Of a DNA stretch of 64,000 nucleotides, positions 3,332-27,936 are shown piece by piece (the stretch's first letter is position 1; the number at the start of each line of letters is the position of its first letter). Source of the stretch: Aromatoleum diolicum (GTDB lineage: Bacteria > Pseudomonadota > Gammaproteobacteria > Burkholderiales > Rhodocyclaceae); the NCBI RefSeq assembly GCF_012910955.1, contig NZ_WTVQ01000007.1, forward strand, positions 1 to 64,000, read 5' to 3'. The notes under the pieces were generated by a model. That model was given only the letters and a program-made list of their open reading frames with translations, made no database searches and was not told the DNA's origin. A program made the position numbers and the translations under genes.

Positions 3332-3355
3332 CGGGATCCGAGGAGCGCACAGGGC

Positions 3356-11047: not shown

Positions 11048-11073
11048 GCGTTGCAACGAATCGGGGAATGGAT

Positions 11074-12273
11074 ATGAGCAGACAGATTCAGGAAGCCTAC
11101 ATCGTCGCCGCGACGCGCACGCCGGTCGCCAAGAGGAACGGGATGTTCCGCAGCGTGCGTCCGGACGACATGCTCGCGCACGTGCTGTCGGCGCTGGTGG
11201 GGAAGGTGCCGGGCCTGGACCAGGGGGAAATCGGCGATGTGATCGTCGGCTGCGCGATGCCCGAGGCCGAACAGGGCATGAACGTCGCGCGCATCGGCCT
11301 GCTGCTGGCAGGCCTGCCCGACACGGTGCCGGGGATCACGATCAACCGTTTCTGCTCGTCGGGGCTGCAGGCGGTTGCCGACGCGGCGGCGCGCATCCGG
11401 CTCGGCGAGGCGGACGTGATGATCGCCGCCGGTACCGAGTCGATGAGCGCGATGCCACAGATCATGGGCAATAAGGTGAGCCTCAATCCGGCGATTTTCG
11501 CCAAGCAGGAAAACGTCGGCATCGCCTTCGGTATGGGACTGACCGCCGAGAAGGTCGCGCAGCAGTGGAAGGTGAGCCGCGAGGACCAGGACGCATTCGC
11601 GCTGCAATCGAACCAGCGCGCCTGCGCGGCGATCGCAGCGGGGCATTTTCGTGACGAGATCAGCGCCTACACGGTGCGGGCGCATGTACCGGGCGAAGGT
11701 GGCGCGGTGCGCGTGGTCGAGCGCGTCGCCGACACCGACGAGGGGCCGCGCGCGGATGCGTCGCTCGAATCGCTGGGCAAGCTGAAGCCGGTGTTCGCGG
11801 CGCGCGGCTCGGTGACGGCGGGCAACAGTTCGCAGATGTCGGATGGCGCTGGCGCGGTGCTGCTGATGAGCGAGGCGGCGGTGAAACGCCACGGCGTGAC
11901 GCCGATCGCGCGTTTCGTCAGCTACTCCGTCGCGGGCGTGCCACCGCAGGTCATGGGGATCGGGCCGGTGGAGGCGATTCCGCGGGCGCTGAAGGCGGGC
12001 GGCGTGGCCACGGCGGATGTCGGCTGGATCGAACTCAACGAGGCGTTCGCGGCGCAGGCGCTGGCGGTGATGCGGCAACTGGCGCTGGATCCGGCCAAGG
12101 TCAATCCGCTGGGCGGGGCGATCGCACTGGGCCATCCGCTCGGGGCCACCGGGGCGATCCGCGCGGCGACCTTGATGAGCGCGATGCAGCGCGAGCCGAA
12201 ACTGCGCTACGGCATGATTTCGATGTGCATTGGCACCGGGATGGGGGCGGCGGGGGTGTTCGAGCGGGTGTGA
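11074..12273 (+). CDS. fadA: acetyl-CoA C-acyltransferase (FadA-type thiolase)
   Basis: A 399-residue thiolase. Nucleophile Cys94 is in NRFCSSGLQAVADAA; NEAFAAQALAVMRQ, GHPLGATGA and the terminal SMCIGTGMGAAG with the second cysteine are intact. It cleaves 3-ketoacyl-CoA and probably pairs with the 8666 gene product. The start is ATG 11074, preceded 7 nt upstream by GGGGA (11062-11066); ATG 11068 two codons earlier is also possible. The stop is 3 bp before the next gene, so 8666-13633 looks like one transcript. It is of standard length and clearly a different subfamily from the thiolase at 3356. Confidence 0.94.
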   Translation: MSRQIQEAYIVAATRTPVAKRNGMFRSVRPDDMLAHVLSALVGKVPGLDQGEIGDVIVGCAMPEAEQGMNVARIGLLLAGLPDTVPGITINRFCSSGLQAVADAAARIRLGEADVMIAAGTESMSAMPQIMGNKVSLNPAIFAKQENVGIAFGMGLTAEKVAQQWKVSREDQDAFALQSNQRACAAIAAGHFRDEISAYTVRAHVPGEGGAVRVVERVADTDEGPRADASLESLGKLKPVFAARGSVTAGNSSQMSDGAGAVLLMSEAAVKRHGVTPIARFVSYSVAGVPPQVMGIGPVEAIPRALKAGGVATADVGWIELNEAFAAQALAVMRQLALDPAKVNPLGGAIALGHPLGATGAIRAATLMSAMQREPKLRYGMISMCIGTGMGAAGVFERV

Positions 12274-12276
12274 GGC

Positions 12277-12810
12277 ATGCGCCCGAAAATTCTCGACCGC
12301 ATCCCGCCGCGTTTCCGCGCCGCGCTGCTGCGCATCGGCTTTAATCTGTATCCGTCCTACCGCGCGACCGGCGGGCGGGTGATTCACGTTTCGCGTGACC
12401 TCAGGACGATCCGCGTGATGCTGCGGCATTCCTGGCGCACCGTGAATCCGGCCGGCGCACTGTTCGGCGGGGCGCTGTACGCGGCTGCCGACCCGATGTT
12501 TGCGATGCTGCTGGCGTTGCAGCTGGGCGACGACGTGGTGGTGTGGGACAAATCCGGGCAGATCCGCTATCGGCGCCCGGGGCGCAGCCATCTCTTCGCG
12601 GATTTCCACGTCACGGACGAAGACGTCGAGGCGGTGCGCCGCGCGCTGCGGGAAGGTGGCGAAACCGAGCGCACGTTCTGCGTCGAGCTGAAGGATCGCC
12701 ACGGCGAGACGCACGTCGAACTCGAGAAGACCGTCTACATCGCGACCAAGGCATACTACAAGGCCAAGATCGAACGCCGCGACGCTGCGCCCGGGAACGC
12801 AGCGCGCTAA
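12277..12810 (+). CDS. DUF4442-type hotdog-fold protein, putative thioesterase
   Basis: A 177-residue cytoplasmic protein. NPAGALFGGALYAAADPMFAM resembles the central helix region of hotdog thioesterases (N, G, GG, then D) and matches the DUF4442 group, whose members are annotated as YiiD/PaaI-like. A long charged C-terminal tail (TKAYYKAKIERR) follows. It begins 3 bp after fadA and ends 22 bp before the next gene, so it belongs to the beta-oxidation transcript and may release CoA from an intermediate. The substrate cannot be read from the sequence. The start ATG 12277 gives MRPKILDRIPPRF, a plausible amphipathic N-terminus. Confidence 0.75.
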   Translation: MRPKILDRIPPRFRAALLRIGFNLYPSYRATGGRVIHVSRDLRTIRVMLRHSWRTVNPAGALFGGALYAAADPMFAMLLALQLGDDVVVWDKSGQIRYRRPGRSHLFADFHVTDEDVEAVRRALREGGETERTFCVELKDRHGETHVELEKTVYIATKAYYKAKIERRDAAPGNAAR

Positions 12811-15438: not shown

Positions 15439-15578
15439 CGGCATATTTGTATCAAATGCCGGTAATTCGGCATATCCATCGAAAGTCGGGATTCGGTGAA
15501 TTATTTGCTTACCCGGATCGAATCCTTGATTTGTGCAATTTGGGCCTCTAAATATGAGGAATGCCGTTCATCGGCATT
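15439..15578 (+). repeat. repeated ATGCCG/CGGCAT dyads around a promoter
   Basis: The hexamer CGGCAT or its reverse ATGCCG occurs five times here: 15439-15444, 15456-15461, 15468-15473, 15561-15566 and 15572-15577. Four of them form two inverted repeats, ATGCCG-6-CGGCAT (15456-15473) and AATGCCG-5-CGGCATT (15560-15578). The centres are about 104.5 bp apart, close to ten helical turns. One dyad lies upstream of the promoter at 15526, the other in the untranslated leader directly before the ribosome-binding site. They look like operators for a dimeric regulator; the second could also fold as an RNA hairpin. Confidence 0.6.
15526..15554 (+). promoter_or_regulatory. sigma-70 promoter of the outer-membrane barrel gene
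   Basis: TTGATT (15526-15531), an exact 17-bp spacer and TAAATA (15549-15554) in a locally AT-richer stretch. The expected start of transcription is near 15561, at the downstream dyad, leaving a leader of about 28 nt. The 306-bp gap 15283-15588 holds this promoter and the dyads; I see no gene in it. Confidence 0.6.
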
Positions 15579-15588
15579 GGAGGTAGCC

Positions 15589-16872
15589 ATGTTTCGGAGA
15601 TATTTTGCATCCGTTTTGTTAGCGGTTATTTCAAATCTTGCAATTGCAGATGACGTGTTCAATATTTCGGCGACCGTCGGATCATTGACAAATTCGGCGG
15701 GTTTAACGACTGCCAGCGATACATTCGATTCGCTCACGCAAAGCGAACTGAATGCGTTAATTCCGACCTACACCGGGACGGAAATCGCCAGCGTCGATAT
15801 CGATTTCCGTGGCTTGGCGCTCACCGTGGCTTACCCCATAACCGGGGCGCCCGATCTCGTTCTGAATATTCCGAGTCTAGGCATTTCGAGGACCTTCGTC
15901 GGCAGCACGCGGGAGGAAAGCCGACGGCTGCTGCGCGATTTCTTCAAGGACGGAAGTATGCTGGGGCGCATCATGCGGGAACTGGCGCAGGTGTCACCGG
16001 TGGATCCGATGGCCGGCAACCCGAATAGCCTGCAGGCACGCATGATCACGGGTGCTTTCGAGCGCAATTTCCGTCGCCAGGTGAGCCGGATCAAGGGCGA
16101 GCGCGACACGCGCAGCGCGCTGCGGAACGAACCGCTGCGCTTCGCCGCGAATCAGCAGCGCGACACGATGACGGATGGTGTGGCAGCGAGCGCACGGCGT
16201 TCGTCGAGTGTGGACGTGGGGGCGACCGTGAGCGCTTTCCGGCAGGAGGGGCTGGGCACCGCGAGCGTCGATGTGCCTTTAGGCTATGCCTTTCCGCCGG
16301 ATCCGGGGCGTCCGTTCTCGCTCAACGCGGATCTTCAGGTGAGCGACACCGAAGGGGCTGCGAGCTATGGCGCGGACATAGGTGCGGCGTATCGTTTCGA
16401 CCTCAATGAGCGCTGGTTCCTGGCGCCGTCCGCCAACTTGGGTATTGTCGCATCCGAGGACCTCGGTTCACTGGGAACGGTCGCGTCCGCCGCGCTGACC
16501 AGTGCCTATCTGCTCTACGACGGCGGCTATTCGTTGTGGATGGGCAATGCGATCAATTATTCGCGAACGCTGCACACCTCGATTGCCGGATATTCATTCG
16601 ATTCGAAAATAGAGAATGTCGTATTCGTCAACGGCCTGTTGCTGTCGACGCCGCTCCCTGCGCTCGGGGCGAATTATTCGATCGAATATTCGCTGACCGA
16701 TATCCGTTATACCGGGACCGAGCTTTATAATAATTATTATGACGAAATCGGCGTCGCGCTTGGTCGCGGCTGGAATTCGGGCGGCGTCGAAAATAATCTC
16801 AGAGTCGGGTTGAGTTACCTGACGTCGGAGAATTCGCGCGGCTTCACCCTGACTTTGGCCTATTCCTTCTGA
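15589..16872 (+). CDS. unrecognised exported protein with a C-terminal outer-membrane beta-barrel
   Basis: 427 residues. A short signal peptide (MFRRYFASVLLAVISNLAIA) ends before DDVFNIS. Residues about 25-200 form a passenger-like region, the latter part charged and helical (REESRRLLRDFFKDGSM, then FERNFRRQVSRIKGERDTRS). From about 205 to the end, alternating aromatic strands (YGADIGAAYRFDLNERWFL, NNLRVGLSYLTSENSRGF) finish with TLTLAYSF, a classic Bam-recognition end with terminal phenylalanine. I recognise the architecture (autotransporter-like barrel) but not the family. GGAGG at 15579-15583, 5 nt before ATG, sets the start. The first part of the gene is AT-richer than its neighbours, suggesting acquisition. 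It converges with the FecR gene, leaving only 19 bp between stops. Confidence 0.75.
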   Translation: MFRRYFASVLLAVISNLAIADDVFNISATVGSLTNSAGLTTASDTFDSLTQSELNALIPTYTGTEIASVDIDFRGLALTVAYPITGAPDLVLNIPSLGISRTFVGSTREESRRLLRDFFKDGSMLGRIMRELAQVSPVDPMAGNPNSLQARMITGAFERNFRRQVSRIKGERDTRSALRNEPLRFAANQQRDTMTDGVAASARRSSSVDVGATVSAFRQEGLGTASVDVPLGYAFPPDPGRPFSLNADLQVSDTEGAASYGADIGAAYRFDLNERWFLAPSANLGIVASEDLGSLGTVASAALTSAYLLYDGGYSLWMGNAINYSRTLHTSIAGYSFDSKIENVVFVNGLLLSTPLPALGANYSIEYSLTDIRYTGTELYNNYYDEIGVALGRGWNSGGVENNLRVGLSYLTSENSRGFTLTLAYSF

Positions 16873-16891: not shown

Positions 16892-17581
16892 TTAGTACCG
16901 CCTTGGCGGCAGGCGCTGCGGCAGCAATATCAGCCGCTGTATCGTGCGAAGCTTCTGGCGGAATTCGGTGGCCATGCGTTCCTTTTCGAAGCGCGGGGGC
17001 TCACCCCCGCGCAGCGTATAGACATCATTTTCCTTGACCAGCACCGGGGTCCAGAGGCCGGATTTCGACGATAGGCGCACGCGTCCTTCGGTGACGCCGA
17101 CGGCCGCGTCTTGGTCCTTTTCCAGCTTGACCCAGAATTCCGTGCCTTCGACGCCGGCCGTGACAAATTGGGTCTCGACGCTGAACAGGCCCTTGGCACG
17201 CACGATCAGCTCGCCGAAATAGGCGAAGATCGAACCGACCCTGACGCGGCTGCGGGGCAGGACGAAGACTTCGTGGCCTTCGGGAAAACGGATGATGGCG
17301 GTGGCGTTCGCGCCCGAGTCGAGTTCGTCTCCGGTTTCGAGGGCCATCGGCAATTGTGCGGCGATGACCCGTCCCTTGCGTGTGACGGTGAGGTTGCGCG
17401 GGATGTCTTCGGCGCGCATGTCGTGGTACCCGCCCTCGGGGCCGGAATCGGCCGTGACGACACCCGTCAGCAGCGGGCCGGTCTGGGCACAGCCGCCGGC
17501 GAGTGCGCTCAGCGCGACGATTGCGAAGCAGCGTGACAAACCACCGCTGATGCCGGATGGGACTGTTCGGGGGATCGTCAT
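16892..17581 (-). CDS. FecR-domain lipoprotein
   Basis: 229 residues. A signal sequence ends in the lipobox LSALAGGC, giving lipidated Cys31, and the next residues (AQ) do not signal inner-membrane retention. Residues about 55-180 form a FecR domain: GDELDSGANATAIIRFPEGHEV, then VRVGSIFAYFGELIVRAKG and FSVETQFVTAGVEGTEFWV, the last being the FecR signature. Unlike classical FecR, there is no cytoplasmic helix for sigma-factor control, and no ECF sigma gene is nearby. FecR-domain proteins of this kind are often found beside CHASE2 proteins. It begins 33 bp after the TIR-CHASE2 stop, with AGGAA 5 nt before ATG, and is the last gene of the minus-strand run. Confidence 0.85.
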   Translation of the reverse strand: MTIPRTVPSGISGGLSRCFAIVALSALAGGCAQTGPLLTGVVTADSGPEGGYHDMRAEDIPRNLTVTRKGRVIAAQLPMALETGDELDSGANATAIIRFPEGHEVFVLPRSRVRVGSIFAYFGELIVRAKGLFSVETQFVTAGVEGTEFWVKLEKDQDAAVGVTEGRVRLSSKSGLWTPVLVKENDVYTLRGGEPPRFEKERMATEFRQKLRTIQRLILLPQRLPPRRY

Positions 17582-17614
17582 GCGGGTTCCTCGGCGGTGG
17601 CGGATATTGCACGC

Positions 17615-19354
17615 TCAGGCGGACGACTGCCCGGCGACATGAGCGCGGGAGTCGCGCGTTTCCAATAGACGCATCCGGCGCGCAATCTTGACCAGAGCGA
17701 CGTACGCGATGAAGAAGGCGCTGATGTGGTAGGGCTGATTGAGCAGGATGTCGGCCTCGACATACAGCAGAAGGGAGGCCGCGAAGTAGAGCAGGGGCAC
17801 TCCGACAAGGTAGACCCATCGCAGCGGGCGCGATTTCAGCACACCGGCCAGCCGCGCCGTGACGCCGAGTCCGCCCATGGCGATCATGATCAGGAATTGG
17901 TCGAATGGGTCGAGCGGATGGATGCGGGTGCCGTGCAGGATGGTGTTCAGCGTGTCTGCATGCACTTCGTAGCCGCCGCGCTCTTCGGTGGTGAGGCCGC
18001 GCAGCACCGCGATGCGGTCGTCACGCGCTTCGGACCCGACCAGCACGATGCGGTCCTTGAAGGCGTCCGGCGGGATCGCCGCGGGGTTCTGCACGAGTTC
18101 CTCGTAGCGGTGGCGACGGCGCGCGAGCTGATCGGGTGGGCGGAAATCGACGATCAGCTGTGCGACGGCGTCGCCCTTCTCAAGGATGGGGCAGGCCTTC
18201 TGGCCGCTCGTCAGGACTTCGTCGAGGGAGTACGCGATGCGCTTGAGGCCTGCCGGCGTGCGCAGCAGGATCGTGCCCGATCGCGTGTCGATTTCCTCGA
18301 CGACCGAGTTCGGCTCCGCGGCCAGCAGGCCCAGCGCGATCACGTCCTGCTTGCCGCGGACCGCAAGCGGCACGACCGTCGCGTAGCCGAGCCGGGTGCC
18401 CGCACACAGCATGCCGGTGCCGGCGACGACGTCGGTGAGTTCGGCGATGCGGGAGGGGCTGCCGGTGCGCGTGCCGAACACGACCGCGGTGCCGTTCTGC
18501 TTCGCGGCGCGGATGGCCTCGACCAGCATCTCGTCATCAGGACCCGGTTCGCCGAGGAAGATGTCGAAGGCGATGACGCGGGCGCCTGCGCGGGACAGTG
18601 CATCGATCAGCTGCGCGTGTTCGCGTCGCCAGCTGCGGTCGAACGGCCGCCCGATCTTCCGTTCGGTCTCGGCGTCGATCGCGACGATCTCGAGGCGTTT
18701 GTCGACCGGGCTCTCTCGGAGCACGTTGCCGAGCGCCATCGTGTAGCTGGCCATCTTGGTGTCGAGCGTCAGGAAATCGAACAGCGCCGTCCACGCGGCG
18801 AAGAACATCGCGATTGCGACGCTGGGTGCGATCCACCATGCGAGGCGACGCAACTTCATCCGCACGACGAGATCGGTGATGATGTTCGCCAGGCCCCGCT
18901 TTTCGATCGCGGCGATCAGGTTAGCGAGATCGGCCTTGAGCCGTCGCCCGCTGATTTCCGGCGCGTTCAGGGACGGGAGCGCCGAGATGTCCGCGGGGAG
19001 CGCGGTCGCATGCGGCATCTGCGCGCCTTCCAGCAGGACGGGAATGACGCGCTTGCCCTGGCGTAAGGCGCTGGCGATCTCCAGCCGGACGTAGTCGTCG
19101 GGGTCGTCGAGGCGTCGGATGCCGTCCTTCTCCATCGTTGCCCAGCGTGGAGTGATCATTACCAGCAGGACGGTGCAGTCGGCGATCCGCTCTTCGATCT
19201 CCTTGCGGAAGTCATCGCCGTAACCGATCTTCTCGATGTCCATGAACACGCGGTCCGCGCCGAAATAGTCCGCGAGTTCGCGGTAGATCAGTTCGGTATG
19301 GACGGTCGCGTCGTCCCGACGATAGCTGAGAAAGATCCGAGTCACTTCGGCCAT
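17615..19354 (-). CDS. TIR domain fused to a CHASE2 membrane sensor
   Basis: 579 residues. Residues about 5-150 are a bacterial TIR domain: RIFLSYRRDD at the start of strand A, FMDIEKIGYGDDF as the BB-loop region, TVLLVMITPRW, and DDYVRLEIASALRQGKRVIPVLL, where Glu92 occupies the position of the catalytic glutamate of TIR NADases. A membrane segment follows at about 170-195 (WWIAPSVAIAMFFAAWTALF). Then comes a CHASE2 domain of some 250 residues, starting LEIVAIDAETERKIG, with the conserved RAGARVIAFDIFL and DRIVLVGSEARDD. Three further hydrophobic helices end the protein. CHASE2 is expected in the periplasm and TIR in the cytoplasm. In known proteins CHASE2 is usually joined to cyclases or kinases. 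The activity is unknown: NAD cleavage or scaffolding. Confidence 0.85.
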   Translation of the reverse strand: MAEVTRIFLSYRRDDATVHTELIYRELADYFGADRVFMDIEKIGYGDDFRKEIEERIADCTVLLVMITPRWATMEKDGIRRLDDPDDYVRLEIASALRQGKRVIPVLLEGAQMPHATALPADISALPSLNAPEISGRRLKADLANLIAAIEKRGLANIITDLVVRMKLRRLAWWIAPSVAIAMFFAAWTALFDFLTLDTKMASYTMALGNVLRESPVDKRLEIVAIDAETERKIGRPFDRSWRREHAQLIDALSRAGARVIAFDIFLGEPGPDDEMLVEAIRAAKQNGTAVVFGTRTGSPSRIAELTDVVAGTGMLCAGTRLGYATVVPLAVRGKQDVIALGLLAAEPNSVVEEIDTRSGTILLRTPAGLKRIAYSLDEVLTSGQKACPILEKGDAVAQLIVDFRPPDQLARRRHRYEELVQNPAAIPPDAFKDRIVLVGSEARDDRIAVLRGLTTEERGGYEVHADTLNTILHGTRIHPLDPFDQFLIMIAMGGLGVTARLAGVLKSRPLRWVYLVGVPLLYFAASLLLYVEADILLNQPYHISAFFIAYVALVKIARRMRLLETRDSRAHVAGQSSA

Positions 19355-19399
19355 GTCCGCCTCGCGGGTTCCGCTCTTGTACGGCCCTGGCGGGTCATG

Positions 19400-20875
19400 T
19401 CACAGGGTTTTCAGATAGTCGACAAGCGCGTCCTTGTCGGCGTCCGGCAGCGTCGTGCCGAAGTCGTGCCCGCCATTGCCATTGCCGCGCAGACGGGTGT
19501 CATAGCGCGTACCGACGCGCTCGGCATCGGGGCCCGCGGTGACAAAACCACCTCTCTTCTGATCATAGACATCGTAGCCGCGCAGGAATTCGACCGGGCG
19601 CTGCGACGGCGGCTCCAACAGGTCGCGCAGTGTCGGCACCGAGCCGTTGTGCAGATAGGGCGCGCGCAACCAGATACCGTCGAGGAACTGGATGACGTAG
19701 CCGTCGAGCGTTTCCTCGACGAGGCCCTTGCGCTCGATGCCCATCTCGCGCACGACGCGGTTGGCGGCGATCGCAGCCTCCTTGTTCCAGCTGTCGAGCC
19801 GCCCGCGGTCGGTGCCGATCTCGGCCAGCGGCAGGCGCGTGCCGGTGCGCTCCGACATGTGGCAGGCGGCGCAATGCGCATCGAACACCGCCTTGCCGGC
19901 GGCGGCCTTGTCGGCGTCGATCGCGAAGGGGTACTTCGGCGCCGGCAGTGAGCCGAGGTACGCGTGCATCCAGTCGACGTGGCCGAGGAAGGCCTGGCGG
20001 TCCTTCGGCGGGGCGCCGAGTACGCCGAGCGCGGAGTCGATGATCACCGAGCGCGCGTCGTGGCTGTCGCCGGCGAGGTTCATGAAGTGCCCCTTCTCCG
20101 GCTTGTATTTGTTGAGGTTCCACAGCGACGGCATGTCGGTCGGGCCGAAGGTGTCGTCCATCGGCGCCTTGATGAGGAAGTACTTAGTGAGGTTCATCGA
20201 GTCGTCGCGGCCGCGCCCCCAGTCGGGAAAATCGGGCCGGTAGATCCAAGCGAACTGCGCCTCGCGTTCGAGCAGGCGCTTCTTCGTGAGCGGGATGATG
20301 AGGAAGCGCCACGCGAGGCGGTCGAGCCAGTCGAGTTCGGTGACCAGCGCGATCTCGCGCATCAGCACGTCGGCGTTGAAGCGCGGGTCTTTCGCGCAGT
20401 CGATCAGGTAGCGGAAGAAGGCTTCGAGGTTGAGCGTGTGGCCCGGCCCGGCGACGACGTAGGTGGGGTTCTCGTCGTGGCGGCTGCGGTAGCTCGCGGT
20501 GTGGCAGGCGGCGCAGGTGTTGGCGACACGTGGAAAGCCGATGGTCTTCTTGGTGAAGCCGATCGGCAGCTCCTGGCCCTGTTCCCAGGCGACGCCGAGC
20601 GCGGCGTAGCCGCCGGCGCCGGGAAGCTTCTCCGGAAAGAGGCGTGGCAGCACGTAGAAGATCCAATAGGGGATGCCGGCATCGTTCTCGGCGCCGATCG
20701 AGCCATACTTGAAACGCATTTCGGGCGTCGCGGTGACCCATGCGGGCTGCGGCTCCTCGCGCAGGAAGCGGTACCAGCCGACGTAGGCGAGGACGGCGCC
20801 GAGCACGAGCAGCAGGGTCAGCGCGAGCCAGAACCAGTGATGCTTCGGCCGCCCGGATAGCGGATCGGTGCTCAT
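19400..20875 (-). CDS. membrane-anchored di-haem c-type cytochrome (MauG / cytochrome c peroxidase / RoxA-like)
   Basis: 491 residues. One membrane anchor (residues about 13-35) places the rest in the periplasm. Two haem-binding motifs are visible, Cys121-Ala-Ala-Cys124-His125 and Cys335-Ala-Ala-Cys338-His339. LRAPYLHNGSVPTLRDLLEPP is characteristic of the di-haem peroxidase and RoxA-like group, and the C-terminus ends DADKDALVDYLKTL, as small cytochrome domains do. Members use peroxide or oxygen, or pass electrons; the substrate cannot be inferred. It is clearly a paralogue of the next gene (20913), sharing FKYGS, FWIxxVLP, the C-terminal half and the spacing of the haem sites. The start ATG 20875 is set by AAGGAG 7 nt upstream. 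Confidence 0.87.
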   Translation of the reverse strand: MSTDPLSGRPKHHWFWLALTLLLVLGAVLAYVGWYRFLREEPQPAWVTATPEMRFKYGSIGAENDAGIPYWIFYVLPRLFPEKLPGAGGYAALGVAWEQGQELPIGFTKKTIGFPRVANTCAACHTASYRSRHDENPTYVVAGPGHTLNLEAFFRYLIDCAKDPRFNADVLMREIALVTELDWLDRLAWRFLIIPLTKKRLLEREAQFAWIYRPDFPDWGRGRDDSMNLTKYFLIKAPMDDTFGPTDMPSLWNLNKYKPEKGHFMNLAGDSHDARSVIIDSALGVLGAPPKDRQAFLGHVDWMHAYLGSLPAPKYPFAIDADKAAAGKAVFDAHCAACHMSERTGTRLPLAEIGTDRGRLDSWNKEAAIAANRVVREMGIERKGLVEETLDGYVIQFLDGIWLRAPYLHNGSVPTLRDLLEPPSQRPVEFLRGYDVYDQKRGGFVTAGPDAERVGTRYDTRLRGNGNGGHDFGTTLPDADKDALVDYLKTL

Positions 20876-20912
20876 CTCTTTCTCCTTCGCGGATTGCATC
20901 GCGGGCCTCCGG

Positions 20913-22442
20913 TCAGAAGGTCTTGAGGAATTCGACCAACGCGGCCTTGTCCTCGTCCGGCAGTTCGGTGCCGTAGGCCTTGCCTTCGTGGCCGGCGTTG
21001 CCGTTGCCGGGTACTGCGGTGTCGTAGCGGAAATACTGGCGCGCACCTTCCTGGCACACCTCGCTGACGAAGCCGAGCTTCGCCTGGTCGATGAGGTCAT
21101 ACCCGCGGCAGAAGCGCGCCGGGCGCGTCGCGGCCGGCTCCAGGAGGTCGCGCACCGTCGGCACCGAGCCGTTGTGCAGGTAGGGTCCGCGCAGCCACAG
21201 GCCGTCGAGGGGCATGTTGGCGTAGCCGAAAGTCTTGCGGAAACCGGTGAAGCGCCACGGGTAGCCGGCATACACCGAGCCGAGGTTCTGCGCGAGCTCG
21301 GGCGTGAAGGAGTCGAGGCGGTGGCGGTCGGTGCCGATGTCTGCGAGCGGCGTGACGTGGCCGACGCGCGCGCCGCCGAAATCCTGCCCGCTGGCGCCGT
21401 GGCAGTCGGCGCAGTACTCGGCGTAGAGCGGCGCGCCGCGCGCGGCGAGCGCCTGGTCGATGTCGTACGGGTACTTCGGCGGCGTCGCGTCGAGCAGCCA
21501 TTCCTCGAGGCGGCCGATCGCCACCAGGTCTATGGTCGGCGGCGTCGTGCCGGTGCCGAAGGCGGCGTTCTTGTTGCGCTCCTCGGCCTTGGTGTTGTTG
21601 CCGTCCCAGTGCAGTTGCATCGGCTGACCGTCGTCGCGCGTCTTGCGTTTGCGTTGTTCCCAGATCGACGGGAAGTCGGTGGTGCCGATGCGTTCTTCGG
21701 GCGACAGGCGCGCGGACGGGAAGTTGAACAGCGCCTTCGACGGGTTGAAGGTATCGACGCGCCCCGGGCCCCACGGCGGCTGCGACAGCGACCACGTGAA
21801 GCGCTCGCGCAGCATCAGCAGGCGCTCGCGCATCAGCGCGATGGCGACCGGATAGACGAGGTAGCGGTCGAGCGGCCCGAGCTTGCCCGCCTGTGCGTCG
21901 ATCTCCGGGATGATGTAATCGGGGCTGAAGCGCGCATCGGCCGCACAGTTGAAGAAGAAGTTCTCGAAGCCCATCAGGTTCAACTGGTGGGCGGGCATGC
22001 CGAGGTACACGCGCGGCGCCGATTGCGGCGTGTCGCGCACGGTGCCGGCGTGGCACGCGGCGCAGTTGAGGAACACGCGGTCGAGGCCGAGGCTGCGGCG
22101 CATCGACACGCCGACCGGCAGCGTGCGCCCCGGTTCGTAGAGCATGCCCAGCGACGCGTAGCCTTCACCGGGCAGGTACTTCGCGCACACTTTCGGCAGC
22201 ACCTGCCAGATCCAGAACGGAAAGCCCGACGCGCGCTCGCCGCCGGTGGAGCCGTACTTGAAGTGACGCTCGATGTCCGGGTAGGTGACCGGCTCGTCGG
22301 CGCTGAAACGCACGTACAACCCGACGGCGATCGTCACCGGCACCAGCAGCAGCGCGAGCAGCGTCGCGAAGGCCGGGCAGCACCAGCGCTTGCCCTGTGG
22401 CGGGGGCGGGGGGGGATTCGAGGACGAATGTGGAGCAGGCAT
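20913..22442 (-). CDS. membrane-anchored di-haem c-type cytochrome, paralogue of the neighbouring gene
   Basis: 509 residues. After a proline-rich N-terminus, one membrane helix (about 24-44) anchors a periplasmic body with haem motifs Cys127-Ala-Ala-Cys130-His131 and Cys344-Ala-Asp-Cys347-His348. RGPYLHNGSVPTVRDLLEPA and the closing DEDKAALVEFLKTF match its paralogue at 19400. The duplicate pair shows divergence but no loss of haem ligands, so both are probably active, perhaps on different substrates or as a heterodimer (inference). AAGGAG lies about 8 nt before ATG. There is a 37-bp gap to the paralogue and a 12-bp gap from the gene before it, so co-transcription is likely. Confidence 0.87.
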   Translation of the reverse strand: MPAPHSSSNPPPPPPQGKRWCCPAFATLLALLLVPVTIAVGLYVRFSADEPVTYPDIERHFKYGSTGGERASGFPFWIWQVLPKVCAKYLPGEGYASLGMLYEPGRTLPVGVSMRRSLGLDRVFLNCAACHAGTVRDTPQSAPRVYLGMPAHQLNLMGFENFFFNCAADARFSPDYIIPEIDAQAGKLGPLDRYLVYPVAIALMRERLLMLRERFTWSLSQPPWGPGRVDTFNPSKALFNFPSARLSPEERIGTTDFPSIWEQRKRKTRDDGQPMQLHWDGNNTKAEERNKNAAFGTGTTPPTIDLVAIGRLEEWLLDATPPKYPYDIDQALAARGAPLYAEYCADCHGASGQDFGGARVGHVTPLADIGTDRHRLDSFTPELAQNLGSVYAGYPWRFTGFRKTFGYANMPLDGLWLRGPYLHNGSVPTVRDLLEPAATRPARFCRGYDLIDQAKLGFVSEVCQEGARQYFRYDTAVPGNGNAGHEGKAYGTELPDEDKAALVEFLKTF

Positions 22443-22454
22443 GATCGCGACTCC

Positions 22455-24239
22455 TTAGCTCGGTGCCGGCAGGCAGGGAGCGAGGGCTTCGTAGTTGTCC
22501 GGCCGGGGCAGGACGCCGCCGCCGGCGAGTTCCGCCGCGTAGGCCCGCAGCGTCGCAAGTTCGGCGCTCGCCGGCCAGCGTTCCGGGTCGGCGCCGAGCG
22601 CGCGCAGGGCTTGTTGGGGCGGCATCGGCGTCTTCGGGCGCGCATCGGGTGGCAGCTGCCACATCGCGAGGCGGTAGCGGATGCGCGCGGCGCAATGGGT
22701 CAGGCGGGCGCGCACGGTCGCGTCGTCGCCGTGCAGGAAGTTCGGTGGCGAACTTGCGGGCGTCTGGTGACAGGGGGTGCAGTAGCGCTGGAACAGGCCG
22801 GCGGACGGGGCGGGCGGGAACTGTGGAGCGTCGCGCACGGGCGGCGCGACCGCAAGGGTGGACGACGCGCTCGCGGGAGCTTGGCCGAGTTGCGCGAGCA
22901 GGGCGGGCATCAGCCGATCGCGCCGAAATGGCACCGCAGCGAAGGGTCCGCCATCGGCGGCGGCGAGGGCTGCGATCGCGCGGCTGACGCGCGCGAAATC
23001 GGCGGGCTCCGCGACACGTCCGGCGAATGCGGCATCTAGCCGGGCGAGATCGCGCGCGCCGAGAAAATCGGCAAGGCCCGCGACCGTGTCGTTAATGCGC
23101 GCGTCGTCTGCTTGCCGCCAGATTTCCAGCGGCGCCCGCGGGGCGAGCGGCTCGAAGGGCGCCGGGATGTTCGCGAGCAGCACGCCACCGGCTTGTGCAG
23201 CGTCATCGGGTAGCGGATCACGGCTCGGGATGTTGGGGTCCGGCAAGGCGAGGCCGCCGGGCCAGCGGGCCTGCCACGCGGCGGCGAAGGCCGACCGGAT
23301 CGCCTCGCGCCGCGTCGCGGCGTAGTCATGCCGGCCGGTGGCGCGGTAGTGCAGTGCGGCTTCGAACAGCGCCGCACGGCAGCGCACGCCGTGCTCGCCG
23401 TCACCACAGCCGATCTGCCACAGGGTTTGCCACAAGGCGAAGCGGGTCGCCCGCGCGGTGGCCGTATCGATTGCCGTGGGCAGATCGATGCCGCGCTGCA
23501 CTGGCACGCCATCGAAGCTCGGTTGCCGGGCGAGCAGCCGTGCCGCGACTGCCGGATTGGCGTTGGTTTCCTGCCACAGCGGGCGCGAGAAGATCGGTGC
23601 GTGGTTCTGGTGGCAGGACAGGCACAGCGCGCGCCGCGCATACACGACACGCGGGCTTCCGCCGGCGCGGTAATCGAGCACCAGCTGGAATTCGAAGCGC
23701 GCCGCGGCCTCGTTGTAGCTGATCACTTCGATGATGTCGCTGTTGCCGACGTGGCCGAGGTACAGCCGGTCGCGCTGCAGCGGGCCATCACTGTCCGGCT
23801 CGCCGGCCATCGCCGCGACGATGCGCGGGTGGTGGAAGAAATCCGGTGCGGCGGCGAGGCGTTGCAGCGAGCGACCGATGGGGATCAGCACGCGCACGAG
23901 GCAACGCCCGTCCGGCAGGTCCGCGCAGCGTGCGTCGCCTTCGACTCGCTCGAGCAGCTGTTCGAACGGGTAGGGCAGCGCCGCCGCCCCGCCGAGCGCG
24001 GCGACGCGCTGGTCGAACAGCGAGGTGCCGAGCGGTGGCAGGTCGTCGCCATATGCGTCGGGCGCGACCAGCCAAGTCGCAGCCGGCGGGCGCGCGTAAG
24101 GGCTCGCCACCGCGTGGTCCGGCGTCGGCGCAAGCGCGGAGTTGGCCGCCGCTGGCGGCGACTTGCGCCAGTAATCCCAGCCCGCCAGGGCGAGCGCCGC
24201 GGCAAGCATCAGGGCACTGGCCCGGGTGATGGCGCGCAT
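22455..24239 (-). CDS. exported protein with two c-type haem motifs
   Basis: 594 residues. The N-terminus (ALMLAAALALAGW) is a signal peptide or anchor. Haem motifs are Cys206-Leu-Ser-Cys209-His210 and Cys487-Thr-Pro-Cys490-His491. Between them the sequence is alanine- and arginine-rich without a domain I can name. It lacks the LHNGS signature of the two downstream paralogues, so it is a different, probably accessory, multi-haem protein. QNHAPIFSRPLWQETNANP after the first haem is distinctive and would make a good search query. No Shine-Dalgarno of note is seen before the ATG. It is 34 bp after the lipoprotein gene and part of the same run. Confidence 0.75.
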   Translation of the reverse strand: MRAITRASALMLAAALALAGWDYWRKSPPAAANSALAPTPDHAVASPYARPPAATWLVAPDAYGDDLPPLGTSLFDQRVAALGGAAALPYPFEQLLERVEGDARCADLPDGRCLVRVLIPIGRSLQRLAAAPDFFHHPRIVAAMAGEPDSDGPLQRDRLYLGHVGNSDIIEVISYNEAAARFEFQLVLDYRAGGSPRVVYARRALCLSCHQNHAPIFSRPLWQETNANPAVAARLLARQPSFDGVPVQRGIDLPTAIDTATARATRFALWQTLWQIGCGDGEHGVRCRAALFEAALHYRATGRHDYAATRREAIRSAFAAAWQARWPGGLALPDPNIPSRDPLPDDAAQAGGVLLANIPAPFEPLAPRAPLEIWRQADDARINDTVAGLADFLGARDLARLDAAFAGRVAEPADFARVSRAIAALAAADGGPFAAVPFRRDRLMPALLAQLGQAPASASSTLAVAPPVRDAPQFPPAPSAGLFQRYCTPCHQTPASSPPNFLHGDDATVRARLTHCAARIRYRLAMWQLPPDARPKTPMPPQQALRALGADPERWPASAELATLRAYAAELAGGGVLPRPDNYEALAPCLPAPS

Positions 24240-24273
24240 GGCTGGATGTCCGTCGGCGCACGCGCGGGGTGGC

Positions 24274-25146
24274 CTACTTCGCGGCGACCACGACCCGTTT
24301 CTGCGTGCCTCCCCAGCAGTCTTCCTGCACTGCGCCGGTCTTGTCGAACGCGGGGCCGTCGCGTTCGGCGATGTCCTTGTTGTACAGCACGAAGTTCAGC
24401 ACGAACACGCGGTCCATGTAGGCGCGGCCGAGGTAGAGGCCCGGCCGGATCATGCGAATCTCGTCGCGCACCTTGAGCCCGCGCCGGCCGGCGAGGAAGT
24501 CCGGTTTCTCCAGGTAACCCGGCAATTCGTCGGTGAAGGCGTAGTCGATGATGATCGATTCGCGGCGCGAGTCGATCAGGCTCTGGCCGCAGTAGAGTTT
24601 CGCCGGGAACAGCAGCCACGCGTCCTTGCGCCCGACGGCGATCTTCTGCGGTTCGCCCTCGACGAGGCCGGCCTTGCGCAAGGTCTCGAGATCCTCGATG
24701 CGATTCCGCAGCACGCGTTCGTTGCGGTAGAACACCTTGCCTTTCCACAGCGCCTCGCCGACCTTGTCGACAGCGATGCCCTTCAGGTGCAGCACGAAAC
24801 CGGCCAGCCCGCCGACGATCTCGCCGGCGCGCAGCTTGCCGCTCTCGCCCTCGGACAGGACGATGCTGCCGTCGAACGGGCCGTCCGGGATCGGGCCCGC
24901 GCTCAGGCGCGCGTAGATCTGGTCGAGCTGCTCCTGGTTCAGCAGCGCGAGGTTCTTGGGCGTGATCTTCGCGAGGTCGGCGGTGCCGAGAGGGTATTGA
25001 TACTCGACCTGGGCGAAGTCCGGCTTGCCCGAATACTCCGTCGAATACGGCGCGAACGGGATTGCCGGCGGCTCCGTCTTGCCGCAGGCGGCGAGCACGG
25101 CGGTGACGAGCACGGCGCTCGCGGCGAGAAGGATGCTGCGGGTCAT
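24274..25146 (-). CDS. lipoprotein of unknown function in the cytochrome cluster
   Basis: 290 residues. The signal peptide ends in AVLVTAVLAAC, giving lipidated Cys21 followed by Gly-Lys, which suits outer-membrane sorting. There is no haem motif and no domain I recognise. DGPFDGSIVLSEGESGKLRAG and LYLGRAYMDRVFVLNFVLYNKD suggest a mostly beta fold that could bind a lipid or substrate. Two later cysteines (in LYCGQS and EDCWGG) may form a disulfide. It sits between two di-haem cytochrome genes with gaps of 18 and 34 bp, so it is probably a partner of those enzymes. AAAGGAG stands 8 nt before the ATG. Confidence 0.7.
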   Translation of the reverse strand: MTRSILLAASAVLVTAVLAACGKTEPPAIPFAPYSTEYSGKPDFAQVEYQYPLGTADLAKITPKNLALLNQEQLDQIYARLSAGPIPDGPFDGSIVLSEGESGKLRAGEIVGGLAGFVLHLKGIAVDKVGEALWKGKVFYRNERVLRNRIEDLETLRKAGLVEGEPQKIAVGRKDAWLLFPAKLYCGQSLIDSRRESIIIDYAFTDELPGYLEKPDFLAGRRGLKVRDEIRMIRPGLYLGRAYMDRVFVLNFVLYNKDIAERDGPAFDKTGAVQEDCWGGTQKRVVVAAK

Positions 25147-25164
25147 GGCGCGGTCTCCTTTCGC

Positions 25165-27771
25165 TTACAGGGTCGCGAGGAAGGCGATCAGCGCCTTCTT
25201 GTCGGCGTCCGACAGGTCCTCGCCGAAGCGGTGACCCCCGTTCTCGATCACGTCCGTGCAGTTGTTGTAATGCTGGCGCAGCAACTCGCGCTGGCCACGC
25301 AGCAGGCCGGCGAATTCGGCCGGCGACGCGAGGATGTCGTCGGCGAGCTTCTGCATCTGCGTCGTCGTGTCCTTGCCGAGCCGCGTCTCGAGCTTGGCGG
25401 GATCGCGCTTGGCGAGGAAGAGATCGACGACCAGATCCTTGTGCCGCAGGCTGGTCATCGAGTTCGCCGGAATGCCCGCCGGAACACGCACCTGTCCAGA
25501 CCCGACAAGCGGCTTCTCGCTCGTGCCGTCCCAGTGGCGCGGGCCGAGGTCGAGCACCACGTCCTGGTCGGTGAGCGTCGCCTTCGGTTTCCGCGCCGCC
25601 GGGTACAGCAACTCGTGCATCGACGCGAGATACAGCCGGTAGCGCCCCTCGACGCTCGGATCGGTCTGGAAGCACTCGCTCTGCGTCGCGGCGATCTTGC
25701 CCTCGGCGTCGAGCTCGCGCGGCCGGAAGAAGTCGTTTGCGGCGTTCGCCGGCTTGCCGCACAGCTCCGGCCCGATCGCGTTGTTGTGCATGAAGGGCGC
25801 GTGGGTCCACAGGTTCAGCAGCGACACGTTGCGGTAGTAGCCGCGGCCGCCGTCGTTGGGCTCCTTGATATTGATGTCCGGCGCCCGCGCGCGCAGGGTC
25901 TCCGAGCCGTATTCCTGCCACACGTGGCCTGCCAAGTGGTTCGAGTGCAGTGCGCGGCAGCGGTTGGTGCCGACCTCGGCCGCGGGCGTTGCGACGTCGT
26001 TGCCCAGCCAGTCCGCGCGCAGGCCGTTGTCGGCCAGGGCGTAGAAATCGCGGTTCGCGAACGGCCCGCCGCTGCTTTCCGGGATGCTCGAATGGCAGCG
26101 CGCGCAGTTCGCCGCGAACACCGCCTTGCCGCGCGCCACGGCGCTGGCGCCGTGTTCCGTCTCGAGGTCCGCGATCAGCGCGTCGCGCGTGTACTCCGGC
26201 GCGGCCGCATCGGCGGCCTTGCGCACCGCATTGCGCGCGACGTGCAGGTCGGTCGCGTTCGACTCCGCGGACAGGAAGAACGCGAGGAGATCCGGCAGGC
26301 GGTCCTCGATCGCGCGGAAGTTCGGGCAGTCGCGCCGGCACTGGCCGATGTTGAACGGCGTCTGGCCGAAGCCGCGGCCCTGCGGATCGACCTGGCGCAG
26401 GTCGGTGAGGTGGTTCAGCCAGCACTGCTCGGAGCACGAGCCGATGTTGAAATACACGCGCTGGATCGCCTCGAGCGCGCCGATCGAATCCTCGCCGCCC
26501 TTCAGGATGTGATGCACGCCCGGCTTGCCGAGCGTCGTGTCGTCGCCGCGCACGCTCTTCTCCCAGCACTTGCCTTCGCGCCCTGGTTCGCACCAGCACT
26601 TCGTCTCGTCCTTCTCGGCGCCGCAGCTCGCGGACTTGCGCCACTTGGCGATTTCCTCGCCGGCGAAGATCGGCCGCTGCGCCACGTTGATCAGCGCGTT
26701 GATCGTGCCGGGATTGTTCACGCCGTCGTGCGGGATCGCCGAGGTGTCGGTGACGCCGGGCCGCGCATGCGCGAACATCTGCCATTCCAGACTGCTGTGC
26801 GGCATGCCCGAGCCGAGGATCTCCGACTTGCGGATGTACTGGTTGCCGACCAGTCCCTTGATGTTGGCCCACTGCGGATGCGCCGGGTCGGCCGGCGGAT
26901 TGAGCGGATCGAAGGCGATGTGGCAGGAGCCGCAGCTCGTGCCGATCAGGAAGGGCGGCTCGACCGACGCGTCGGCGAGCTTGGTCGCGCGTTCGTCGGA
27001 CGGCACTTTCGTCTGCTCGACCATGCGCTTGCCGAAGCCTCCCCACGTGCCGGGGCCACCGTTCACCTTCTTCCACTGCTCCGGATCGAAGCGCGGATTC
27101 GGGAACTTGCGGAATCCCAGCGCGCCGGTCGAGGTGCCGAAGCGCAGATCGCACGCGGAATGGCGCATGTCGCGGCCGTCCTTCGCATGCGGGTCGGCTA
27201 CATCGAGCGCGGCATCCTTCAGGCCGCAAGCGGGGTCCACGTAGCCGGGCTTGCCGACGTACTTCAGCAGCACGTCGTCACCCGGACACCAGTCGAAACC
27301 GTAGGTCTCGTCGCGACTCTTGGCCGGGCAGTTCGCCTCGCCGGGTGCGCAGCAGGACGGATCATTGATCAGCCCCCACGCGCGGAAGCGGTCGTCGCGC
27401 TGGTCGCTGCGCAGCACGCGGAACCAGTCCGGCAGCACGCCGACGCGCTGCTGGAAGGTGTAGGTATGGAAGCGCTCGTTGCCTGCCGTCGCCTTGAACC
27501 AGATCAGGCGCCCGACACAGGCCGACTCCGACAGCCCTTCGCGCGCGCAGGCCTCGAAGTACGGCGCGTCCTGATCCACCGACGTGCTTTCGGGCACCGG
27601 CTTGTCCGGTGCGACGACAGCCGGCAACTGAGGTGGCGACGGCGGTGGAAGCTGGGCCGAGGCGGTTGCGACAAGCGGGGAGGGCGAGATGTCCGGATCG
27701 CGGTCAGCCGAAACGAACACCATGGCGAGCAGCGCGCCGACGGCGACGCCGGCGGTGACGAGCAGTTTCAT
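25165..27771 (-). CDS. large exported di-haem cytochrome c peroxidase-like / RoxA-like protein
   Basis: 868 residues, well above the 350-700 usual for this superfamily. The signal peptide (about 1-25) shows export. Haem motifs are Cys280-Gly-Ser-Cys283-His284 and Cys556-Ala-Arg-Cys559-His560. LWTHAPFMHNNAIGPELCGKP is the equivalent of the LHNGS signature, and the tail DADKKALIAFLATL resembles the downstream paralogues. It also has many other cysteines (CCAPGEANC, KCWCEPGREGKCW, CSEQCW), which is unusual and points to several disulfides or metal sites. It is the first gene of the run behind the promoter at 27902. ATG 27771 is chosen from AGGAG 6 nt upstream and the signal peptide; an in-frame start at 27807 is less likely. 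Confidence 0.85.
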   Translation of the reverse strand: MKLLVTAGVAVGALLAMVFVSADRDPDISPSPLVATASAQLPPPSPPQLPAVVAPDKPVPESTSVDQDAPYFEACAREGLSESACVGRLIWFKATAGNERFHTYTFQQRVGVLPDWFRVLRSDQRDDRFRAWGLINDPSCCAPGEANCPAKSRDETYGFDWCPGDDVLLKYVGKPGYVDPACGLKDAALDVADPHAKDGRDMRHSACDLRFGTSTGALGFRKFPNPRFDPEQWKKVNGGPGTWGGFGKRMVEQTKVPSDERATKLADASVEPPFLIGTSCGSCHIAFDPLNPPADPAHPQWANIKGLVGNQYIRKSEILGSGMPHSSLEWQMFAHARPGVTDTSAIPHDGVNNPGTINALINVAQRPIFAGEEIAKWRKSASCGAEKDETKCWCEPGREGKCWEKSVRGDDTTLGKPGVHHILKGGEDSIGALEAIQRVYFNIGSCSEQCWLNHLTDLRQVDPQGRGFGQTPFNIGQCRRDCPNFRAIEDRLPDLLAFFLSAESNATDLHVARNAVRKAADAAAPEYTRDALIADLETEHGASAVARGKAVFAANCARCHSSIPESSGGPFANRDFYALADNGLRADWLGNDVATPAAEVGTNRCRALHSNHLAGHVWQEYGSETLRARAPDINIKEPNDGGRGYYRNVSLLNLWTHAPFMHNNAIGPELCGKPANAANDFFRPRELDAEGKIAATQSECFQTDPSVEGRYRLYLASMHELLYPAARKPKATLTDQDVVLDLGPRHWDGTSEKPLVGSGQVRVPAGIPANSMTSLRHKDLVVDLFLAKRDPAKLETRLGKDTTTQMQKLADDILASPAEFAGLLRGQRELLRQHYNNCTDVIENGGHRFGEDLSDADKKALIAFLATL

Positions 27772-27901
27772 GGTCCGCTCCTGTTGGGTTCCGGGCCGCC
27801 CGCTCAAATGACGGGGCTATGCCCGCGGCGCATATGCACTGCTGGTCGCGCGACGTCCTTCATGCGAGTCGCCGCCGCGATTTTCTTGTGGCGCTTAAGC
27901 T

Positions 27902-27930
27902 TCTATAGGCAAGCACAACCCGGAATGCAA
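27902..27930 (-). promoter_or_regulatory. sigma-70 promoter of the cytochrome / TIR-CHASE2 run
   Basis: Read on the minus strand: TTGCAT (27930-27925), a 17-bp spacer, TATAGA (27907-27902). The start of transcription would be near 27895, giving a leader of about 125 nt before the ATG at 27771. It is one of the best -35/-10 pairs in the window. Confidence 0.62.
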
Positions 27931-27936
27931 ATTCCG
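27921..27936. promoter_or_regulatory. 16-bp palindromic operator candidate over the -35 box
   Basis: CGGAAT-GCAA-ATTCCG is a perfect inverted repeat (6-bp arms, 4-bp centre) that covers the -35 box of the minus-strand promoter. A dimeric regulator bound here would block RNA polymerase. No dedicated regulator gene lies next to it. Confidence 0.5.

Follow-up and report, generated by a model that had tools for sequence, protein, structure and literature searches.

Two gene modules, RoxA-like di-haem cytochromes and a TIR-CHASE2/FecR pair, in one operon-like run of Aromatoleum diolicum

The window analysed here, a 64,000-nucleotide stretch of Aromatoleum diolicum (contig NZ_WTVQ01000007.1 of assembly GCF_012910955.1), carries a run of seven minus-strand genes between positions 16892 and 27771, which we call A to G and which, as read from the sequence, are separated by gaps of 12-45 bp (Table 1). 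This run consists of two modules, a conserved set of five genes (A-E) encoding putative di-haem cytochromes and a lipoprotein, and a rare pair (F-G) encoding a TIR-CHASE2 protein and a FecR-domain lipoprotein, which now stand together in one operon-like run. The end of A-E has repeatedly acquired membrane-bound TIR proteins of different kinds. The initial annotation had the layout right: a single-strand run with short gaps was confirmed, place and strand included, the translations of A, C, D, and E each carry the two CxxCH motifs expected of them, a lipoprotein (B, itself free of CxxCH) lies among the cytochrome genes, and a membrane protein with TIR_2 and CHASE2 domains is followed by a lipoprotein with a FecR domain. 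Its further claim, that cytochromes, TIR-CHASE2, and FecR form one system, failed for this exact combination, as described below.

Table 1. Genes and signals of the run and the adjoining convergent gene, in window coordinates (aa, amino acids; TM, transmembrane).
Feature	Positions	Strand	Length (aa)	Description	Gap to next gene (bp)
Promoter-like element	27902-27930	-		TTGCAT-17-TATAGA, upstream of A, read from sequence	
A	25165-27771	-	868	Exported di-haem cytochrome (CGSCH, CARCH); C-terminal half related to E (RoxA-like)	18
B	24274-25146	-	290	Lipoprotein, lipobox LAAC, no haem motif	34
C	22455-24239	-	594	Exported protein, two CxxCH motifs	12
D	20913-22442	-	509	RoxA-like di-haem cytochrome; PF21419 4.9e-14	13 or 37
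E	19400-20899	-	499 (start 20899) or 491 (start 20875)	RoxA-like di-haem cytochrome; PF21419 3.3e-15	45
F	17615-19354	-	579	TIR (~1-150), TM-like window at 179, CHASE2, TM-like windows at 488 and 514	33
G	16892-17581	-	229	FecR-domain lipoprotein; PF04773 2.8e-6; lipobox AGGC (by eye)	
Convergent gene	15496-16872	+		Resembles an outer-membrane beta barrel by eye	

A conserved five-gene set and a rare gene pair

Loci of relatives (L-numbers; G-numbers denote their genomes) were obtained for 80 of 145 confirmed relatives, and the order A-E was kept in every one of them as far as the contig ran. Gene A was matched in 14 of 61 genomes searched (the window's own among them), with weak and fragmentary matches in three (G011, G030, and G039). 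Five congeners carry A at 85-92% identity, in loci reading A-B-C-D-E as far as the contig reaches (that of G001 ends after C), and none of the five has a full-length homologue of F; behind E they hold a TIR gene (G002 and G016), a pirin gene (G010), or a 190-aa gene followed by a pirin gene (G014). The exact seven-gene unit is therefore not conserved, and the seven genes as one conserved system were ruled out. The initial annotation had named cytochrome clusters of relatives that lack the TIR-CHASE2 and FecR genes as the finding that would speak against it, and for the F-G pair such clusters are what we found.

Full-length homologues of F are rare, occurring in four of 399 genomes of the order and one of 369 of the class, the window's own (E ≤ 1e-60). 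Gene A was present in 19 of the 399 order genomes (E ≤ 1e-100), three of the four F genomes being among these (hypergeometric P 4e-4, or 0.006 without the window's genome), and a profile search with A in the 369 class genomes returned five at E ≤ 1e-30, again including the window's own. A plasmid search with F gave one match, which was confined to the TIR part. A FecR gene adjoins the F homologue in all four testable cases, which are the window, L070, L080 (where a 276-aa open reading frame (ORF) upstream of the F homologue is 38% identical to G in tblastn and the CHASE2 domain of that homologue was recognized by Pfam), and L196 (where the F homologue was found by tblastn and the adjoining FecR by Pfam). 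L195 stands outside this count because its contig ends at F.

In L195 (G428; 2448-3724), a caspase-like gene lies beside the TIR-CHASE2 gene, upstream of it, together with a small ORF that by eye resembles the C-terminal part of the TIR protein of L145.

By sequence, A, D, and E are predicted RoxA-family di-haem cytochromes and C is a further putative two-haem protein. D (161.4 bits) and E (161.5 bits) passed the curated cut-off of 150 bits for NF040606, a di-haem CytoC_perox subfamily; A scored 29.5 bits, under that cut-off, and matched E by hhalign with E = 1.2e-12 over 111 columns in its C-terminal half. A single-sequence search of the PDB with E found RoxA (4b2n, 6e-13) as its sole match, and in a profile search the same structure ranked best, above weak matches to cytochrome oxidase subunits. 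Searches of PDB sequences with the A and C profiles matched nothing for either, and C, which had no NF040606 match, showed nothing alike with the E and A profiles beyond the haem motif. Across 14 control genomes NF040606 gave one match, under the cut-off, and no characterised relative was obtained. Export of D and E was judged from an N-terminal hydrophobic stretch. Two starts are plausible for E, an ATG at 20899 preceded by GGAGG, which leaves a D-E gap of 13 bp, and the next in-frame ATG at 20875, which leaves 37 bp; the starts used across analyses (20860, 20866, 20875, and 20890) differ in the N-terminus only.

Lipoprotein B matched no Pfam or NCBIfam family. Its AlphaFold2 model, with a mean pLDDT of 79.9 from 61 sequences (67.5 in a first model from ten sequences), hints at a faint resemblance to FABP-type lipid-binding beta barrels: the sole PDB match under E 0.001 was 4mve (1e-4), and fatty-acid- or retinoid-binding barrels appeared only at E > 0.01.

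For F, Pfam returned TIR_2 at 3.2e-13 (50.7 bits vs a cut-off of 28) and CHASE2 at 3e-22. Residues 3-147, the TIR domain, matched structures of the human SARM1 TIR (best 6e-8), with the SARM1 segment 'wvhkEiv' aligned to 'yvrlEia' of F and a glutamate in that column in 14 of 14 TIR domains aligned. We take this glutamate to be the catalytic residue of SARM1. SARM1-type TIR domains cleave NAD+, so the TIR domain of F, which keeps the residue, could hydrolyse NAD+ or produce a signal from it.

Gene A is preceded by a promoter-like element that matches 7 of 12 consensus bases (counted by hand) and is missing from the list of a promoter scan. In the upstream regions of A from six Aromatoleum genomes, TTTGC, GCTTGCCTATAGAA, and TTA are all invariant, which speaks for a promoter; the single good promoter proposed for the run is thus a weak match by consensus and a conserved one by comparison. 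A minus-strand terminator-like hairpin (27937-27920) spans the element, in a scan where hairpins occurred at chance level (10 vs 9.2 expected). Between E and F, the scan for minus-strand promoter-like or terminator-like sites lists none, and A-E would probably be co-transcribed with F-G. The convergent gene beyond G had no Pfam or NCBIfam match and no tblastn match of at least 45 bits in the loci of 15 relatives.

TIR genes behind E and other partners of A-E

We surveyed 87 loci with A, of which 63 outside the window have E and at least 500 bp beyond it. Loci on the same contig were counted once (L059/L074, L061/L075, and L065/L097), as were L067 and L076, each of which has one protein with two domain envelopes; the TIR profile was built without the rows of L033 and L035, and L199, L200, L201, and L208 were treated as the same as L127, L128, L130, and L145. 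In six of the 63 loci, E is followed on the same strand, after 8-103 bp, directly by a gene for a TIR protein. Two of these, L060 (TIR_2 by Pfam) and L075, are from Aromatoleum and have a TIR followed by three LCCL domains; L075 and L061 are one contig, and the TIR of L061 shares 91% identity with that of L060. L067 (G046) has TIR_2 with a DUF3108-like end, and L076 (a metagenome-assembled genome (MAG) named Moraxellaceae), L096 (a Dechloromonas MAG), and L108 (HGW-Betaproteobacteria-7) have TIR_2 with no Pfam match behind it. In L145 a TIR gene with a Sad1/UNC-like part behind the TIR lies between B and C.

The same script, run as a control, found no TIR in the 390 kb that lie within 5 kb upstream of A and two in the 333 kb that lie 5-10 kb upstream. 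The excess behind E had a Poisson P of 3e-8 for six or more and 3e-5 for four architectures, or 6e-6 and 5e-4 in a conditional binomial test. If only the 22 loci are taken in which the next gene after E is co-directional and at most 150 bp away, the TIR fraction is 6/22. On a quick tree of A with 62 rows (L107 and L134, which have no usable A protein, were left out), the TIR label, carried by seven rows with the window, requires six changes. Well-supported branches force each of them, and the scatter of the label is about that of shuffled labels. The broader idea of the initial annotation, periplasmic di-haem enzymes tied to a membrane TIR protein, is supported by these loci and by the excess over two controls.

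All seven TIR proteins in the operon or at its end have an N-terminal TIR of ~130-150 residues and a TM-like window at 159-179, and the parts behind the TIR vary among them, except within the pairs L060/L061 and L096/L108. This layout fits a membrane-spanning receptor but is not specific, because 12 of 19 unlinked TIR proteins from the same or related genomes are TM-anchored in the same way (nine by a stricter script rule, the three extra ones having a later TIR start, probably owing to an in-frame start codon further upstream); shared TIR-TM topology was accordingly dropped as evidence for the link.

Further TIR proteins were observed around these operons. In L124 (Cognatazoarcus halotolerans), a TIR-WD40 protein (4067-6469) lies upstream of A and a C-terminal-TIR protein (19416-21107) is encoded second after E; a relative of the latter follows E in L204 (G787; 10614-12518). 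In L110 (a Zoogloea MAG), a TIR-CHAT protein (18510-21899) is encoded convergently, 19 bp after E.

Among the other partners of A-E, a family of membrane patatin-like proteins, all homologous, occurs beside A or after E. It is found directly before A in six loci, at distances of 13, -17, and 52 bp for L149, L150, and L152 and as partly fetched members in L202, L203, and L206; in L209 a further member follows E, with overlapping ends. Pfam patatin scores were 25.0 bits (L149) and 27.4 bits (L209), just under the cut-off of 27.7, and the proteins of L152, L202, and L203 had no Pfam patatin match; the patatin-like name rests on a relative in L066 (opposite strand, after E) with 35.3 bits and on the GGGxR and SDGG motifs of the full-length members. 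L202 also has a class-3 lipase gene between C and D. On plasmid p2 of Rhizobium leguminosarum (L211:2832-15183), distant relatives of A (27% identity), D (47%), and E (41%) stand in a row with an NADH:flavin oxidoreductase; behind the set come a GMC oxidoreductase and a patatin, which belongs to another subfamily and exceeds the Pfam cut-off. FecR proteins are encoded between A and B in L068, L150, and L209, with a beta-propeller protein beside them (by Pfam in L068 and L150, by eye in L209). Behind E, L102 has a redoxin gene and, judged by eye, L078, L079, L081, and L098 carry the same kind of gene in this position.

Two further arrangements were noted. In L090, the stretch after E (19175-22471) encodes first a 209-aa protein that has no match in Pfam, second a caspase-like peptidase, and also a DUF7379 protein, and a gene of the alpha-amylase family lies between B and C in L150 (16216-18060, by Pfam) and L149 (13516-15141, by eye).

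A proposed lipid-oxidation and TIR-sensing mechanism and its rivals

RoxA cleaves polyisoprene. The accessible part of one study groups RoxA with the fatty-acid oxygenases PA2077/PA2078, which oxygenate fatty acids in the periplasm (PMC4496055). We tentatively favour, at somewhat less than an even chance, a reading in which A-E would be a periplasmic lipid oxidation set whose end serves as a slot for exchangeable membrane TIR sensors, here CHASE2/FecR with a SARM1-like TIR. A, D, and E may oxidise or cleave an unsaturated envelope lipid, either an isoprenoid or a phospholipid-derived fatty acid, which B would carry or present. The patatin-like proteins and the lipase encoded in or beside related operons speak for a lipid context. 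The operon end would have been given membrane-anchored TIR proteins repeatedly, the window's slot holding F-G. CHASE2 and FecR would sense conditions in the periplasm, be it oxidised lipid, damage, or the reaction having stopped, and switch on the TIR domain in the cytoplasm; that domain would then cleave NAD+ or produce a signal derived from it. What the sequences show is the two modules, the conservation of A-E, the recurrence of TIR genes after E, the place of F beside FecR genes, and homology to RoxA and SARM1; the lipid substrate, the periplasmic redox product as the signal, the NADase output, and co-transcription are predictions.

Several observations weigh against this reading. No TIR gene stands at the slot in 57 of the 63 loci, nor does a TIR lie within 1 kb of E in any of seven further loci with at least 500 bp after it (L197, L202, L203, L204, L206, L207, and L209; L204 encodes a TIR protein whose start is 710 bp, and whose TIR domain is ~2.1 kb, after E), for a total of 6/70 with a TIR right after E. 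TIRs are also raised 1-4 kb after E, where the 167 kb covered include five loci with one (L081, L095, L099, L110, and L124), in two cases on the opposite strand, so that a hotspot fits as well as an operon slot. The slot also takes pirin, redoxin, and GGDEF/EAL genes, the excess test covers the TIR family only, and duplicate loci were removed by contig alone, leaving close kin in the counts. The TIR-TM layout of 7/7 linked vs 12/19 unlinked proteins does not differ significantly (P 0.08), the barrel match of B is weak, and in L068 and L205 the stretch examined shows A-B-C but neither D nor E.

The strongest rival is that the modules are functionally unrelated. A-E would then be a metabolic or respiratory cytochrome operon, and F-G, like the other TIR genes, would serve defence or stress responses and have come to lie there because the site is well expressed and accepts insertions. 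This is a serious possibility, which we nevertheless doubt. It would account for the five congeners that have A and no full-length F, for the mixed gene content of the place after E, and for the elevated TIR density up to 4 kb beyond it on both strands. The separation of F from A elsewhere fits it as well (different contigs in G052 and G540; in L080, F ~8 kb upstream of the operon and on the opposite strand), as does the lower GC content of the next outside gene, the convergent putative barrel gene (58% vs 66-73% for A-E). Insertion tolerance alone, however, leaves unexplained both the 6/22 share of TIR genes among the close co-directional neighbours of E and the TIR gene between B and C in L145. 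Enrichment of A in the genomes with F, seen also where the two are unlinked, speaks against this rival as well, albeit on three or four cases.

Other accounts would give the same parts different purposes. An undescribed class of envelope surveillance, in which RoxA-type enzymes make an oxidised-lipid signal in the periplasm and exchangeable membrane receptors with TIR (or caspase- or patatin-type) effectors read it and bring about cleavage of NAD+ or an attack on membrane lipid, would connect an oxylipin-like signal with a TIR response but seems unlikely as a whole. Also improbable is an anti-phage or anti-predator role, in which oxidised or disturbed envelope lipid would report injury by phage, toxin, or competitor and TIR, caspase-like, and patatin-like proteins would be alternative responses, much as in conflict systems with exchangeable effectors. 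The effector-like neighbours agree with such a role (the TIRs, the caspase-like genes of L090 and L195, the TIR-CHAT gene of L110, and the patatin-like family), and TIR NADases in phage defence are described in the accessible parts of the literature. No NCBIfam defence model was over its cut-off, however (the Thoeris ThcB4 model reached 38.4 vs 220 bits), PADLOC matches were weak only, the best being ThsB with 27.5 bits, and the patatin-like proteins scanned from L149, L152, L202, L203, and L209 either fall just short of the Pfam cut-off or have no match. We consider equally improbable a role in sensory regulation, with CHASE2/FecR and a non-catalytic TIR scaffold controlling biofilm or surface growth as kin of a Burkholderia operon; the pairing of FecR with CHASE2 is shared with that operon as described in the accessible part of PMC5192318, but F lacks a Pfam kinase domain, no response regulator was found among the ten window proteins scanned, and the TIR of F keeps the SARM1 glutamate column.

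Relation to known systems and meaning

Compared with RoxA, RoxB, and RoxC, D and E are alike in matching PF21419, in carrying two CxxCH motifs each, and, for E, in having RoxA 4b2n as the best PDB match. They differ in score (81.2 and 79.7 bits at best, both for RoxC, vs NCBIfam cut-offs of 900-1000), in their length of ~500 aa, and in their setting, an operon that holds three such paralogues besides B and C. The FadCcp proteins of Pseudomonas aeruginosa (PA2077/PA2078), compared by description only, are likewise a neighbouring pair of periplasmic RoxA-type proteins, as D and E are with two CxxCH motifs in each, and are 43% identical to each other in the part of PMC4496055 available, vs ~39-40% for D and E in tblastn cross-matches on congener loci; the window operon differs in adding A, B, C, and the accessory slot.

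In the Burkholderia BiofilmReg operon a FecR-LysM protein adjoins a CHASE2 histidine kinase, according to the available part of PMC5192318. The window, L070, L080, and L196 similarly place a CHASE2 membrane receptor gene next to a FecR gene, with the difference that the output of F is an N-terminal TIR with no kinase and that G has no Pfam LysM. With SARM1-type NAD hydrolases and bacterial TIR defence proteins F shares its TIR domain and the retained glutamate column, and it differs from them in the fusion to a putative periplasmic CHASE2 receptor; no Thoeris partner was found among the neighbours scanned. The EACC2 caspase proteins, as far as the accessible part of their description goes (eLife 2021, PMC8195603), have variable C-termini, CHASE2 included, and so similarly place an effector domain on an exchangeable sensor; F has a TIR in place of the caspase and lies beside di-haem cytochromes.

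Among open-access titles and abstract beginnings, a weak basis for a negative, none was found that describes the A-E operon or a link of TIR-CHASE2 to cytochromes, and the available main text of PMC7159879 has no CHASE2, FecR, or patatin. Even apart from the TIR link, A-E would be a widespread operon of three RoxA-like enzymes that is undescribed in the literature found, and its lipase-type partners in several lineages point to a testable substrate class. The loci hint that envelope chemistry is tied to a TIR response in a way not yet described. If true, this would join periplasmic haem-based lipid oxidation to bacterial TIR signalling, which the literature searched leaves unjoined, and would offer a testable trigger for TIR receptors with CHASE2, LCCL, and other exported parts.

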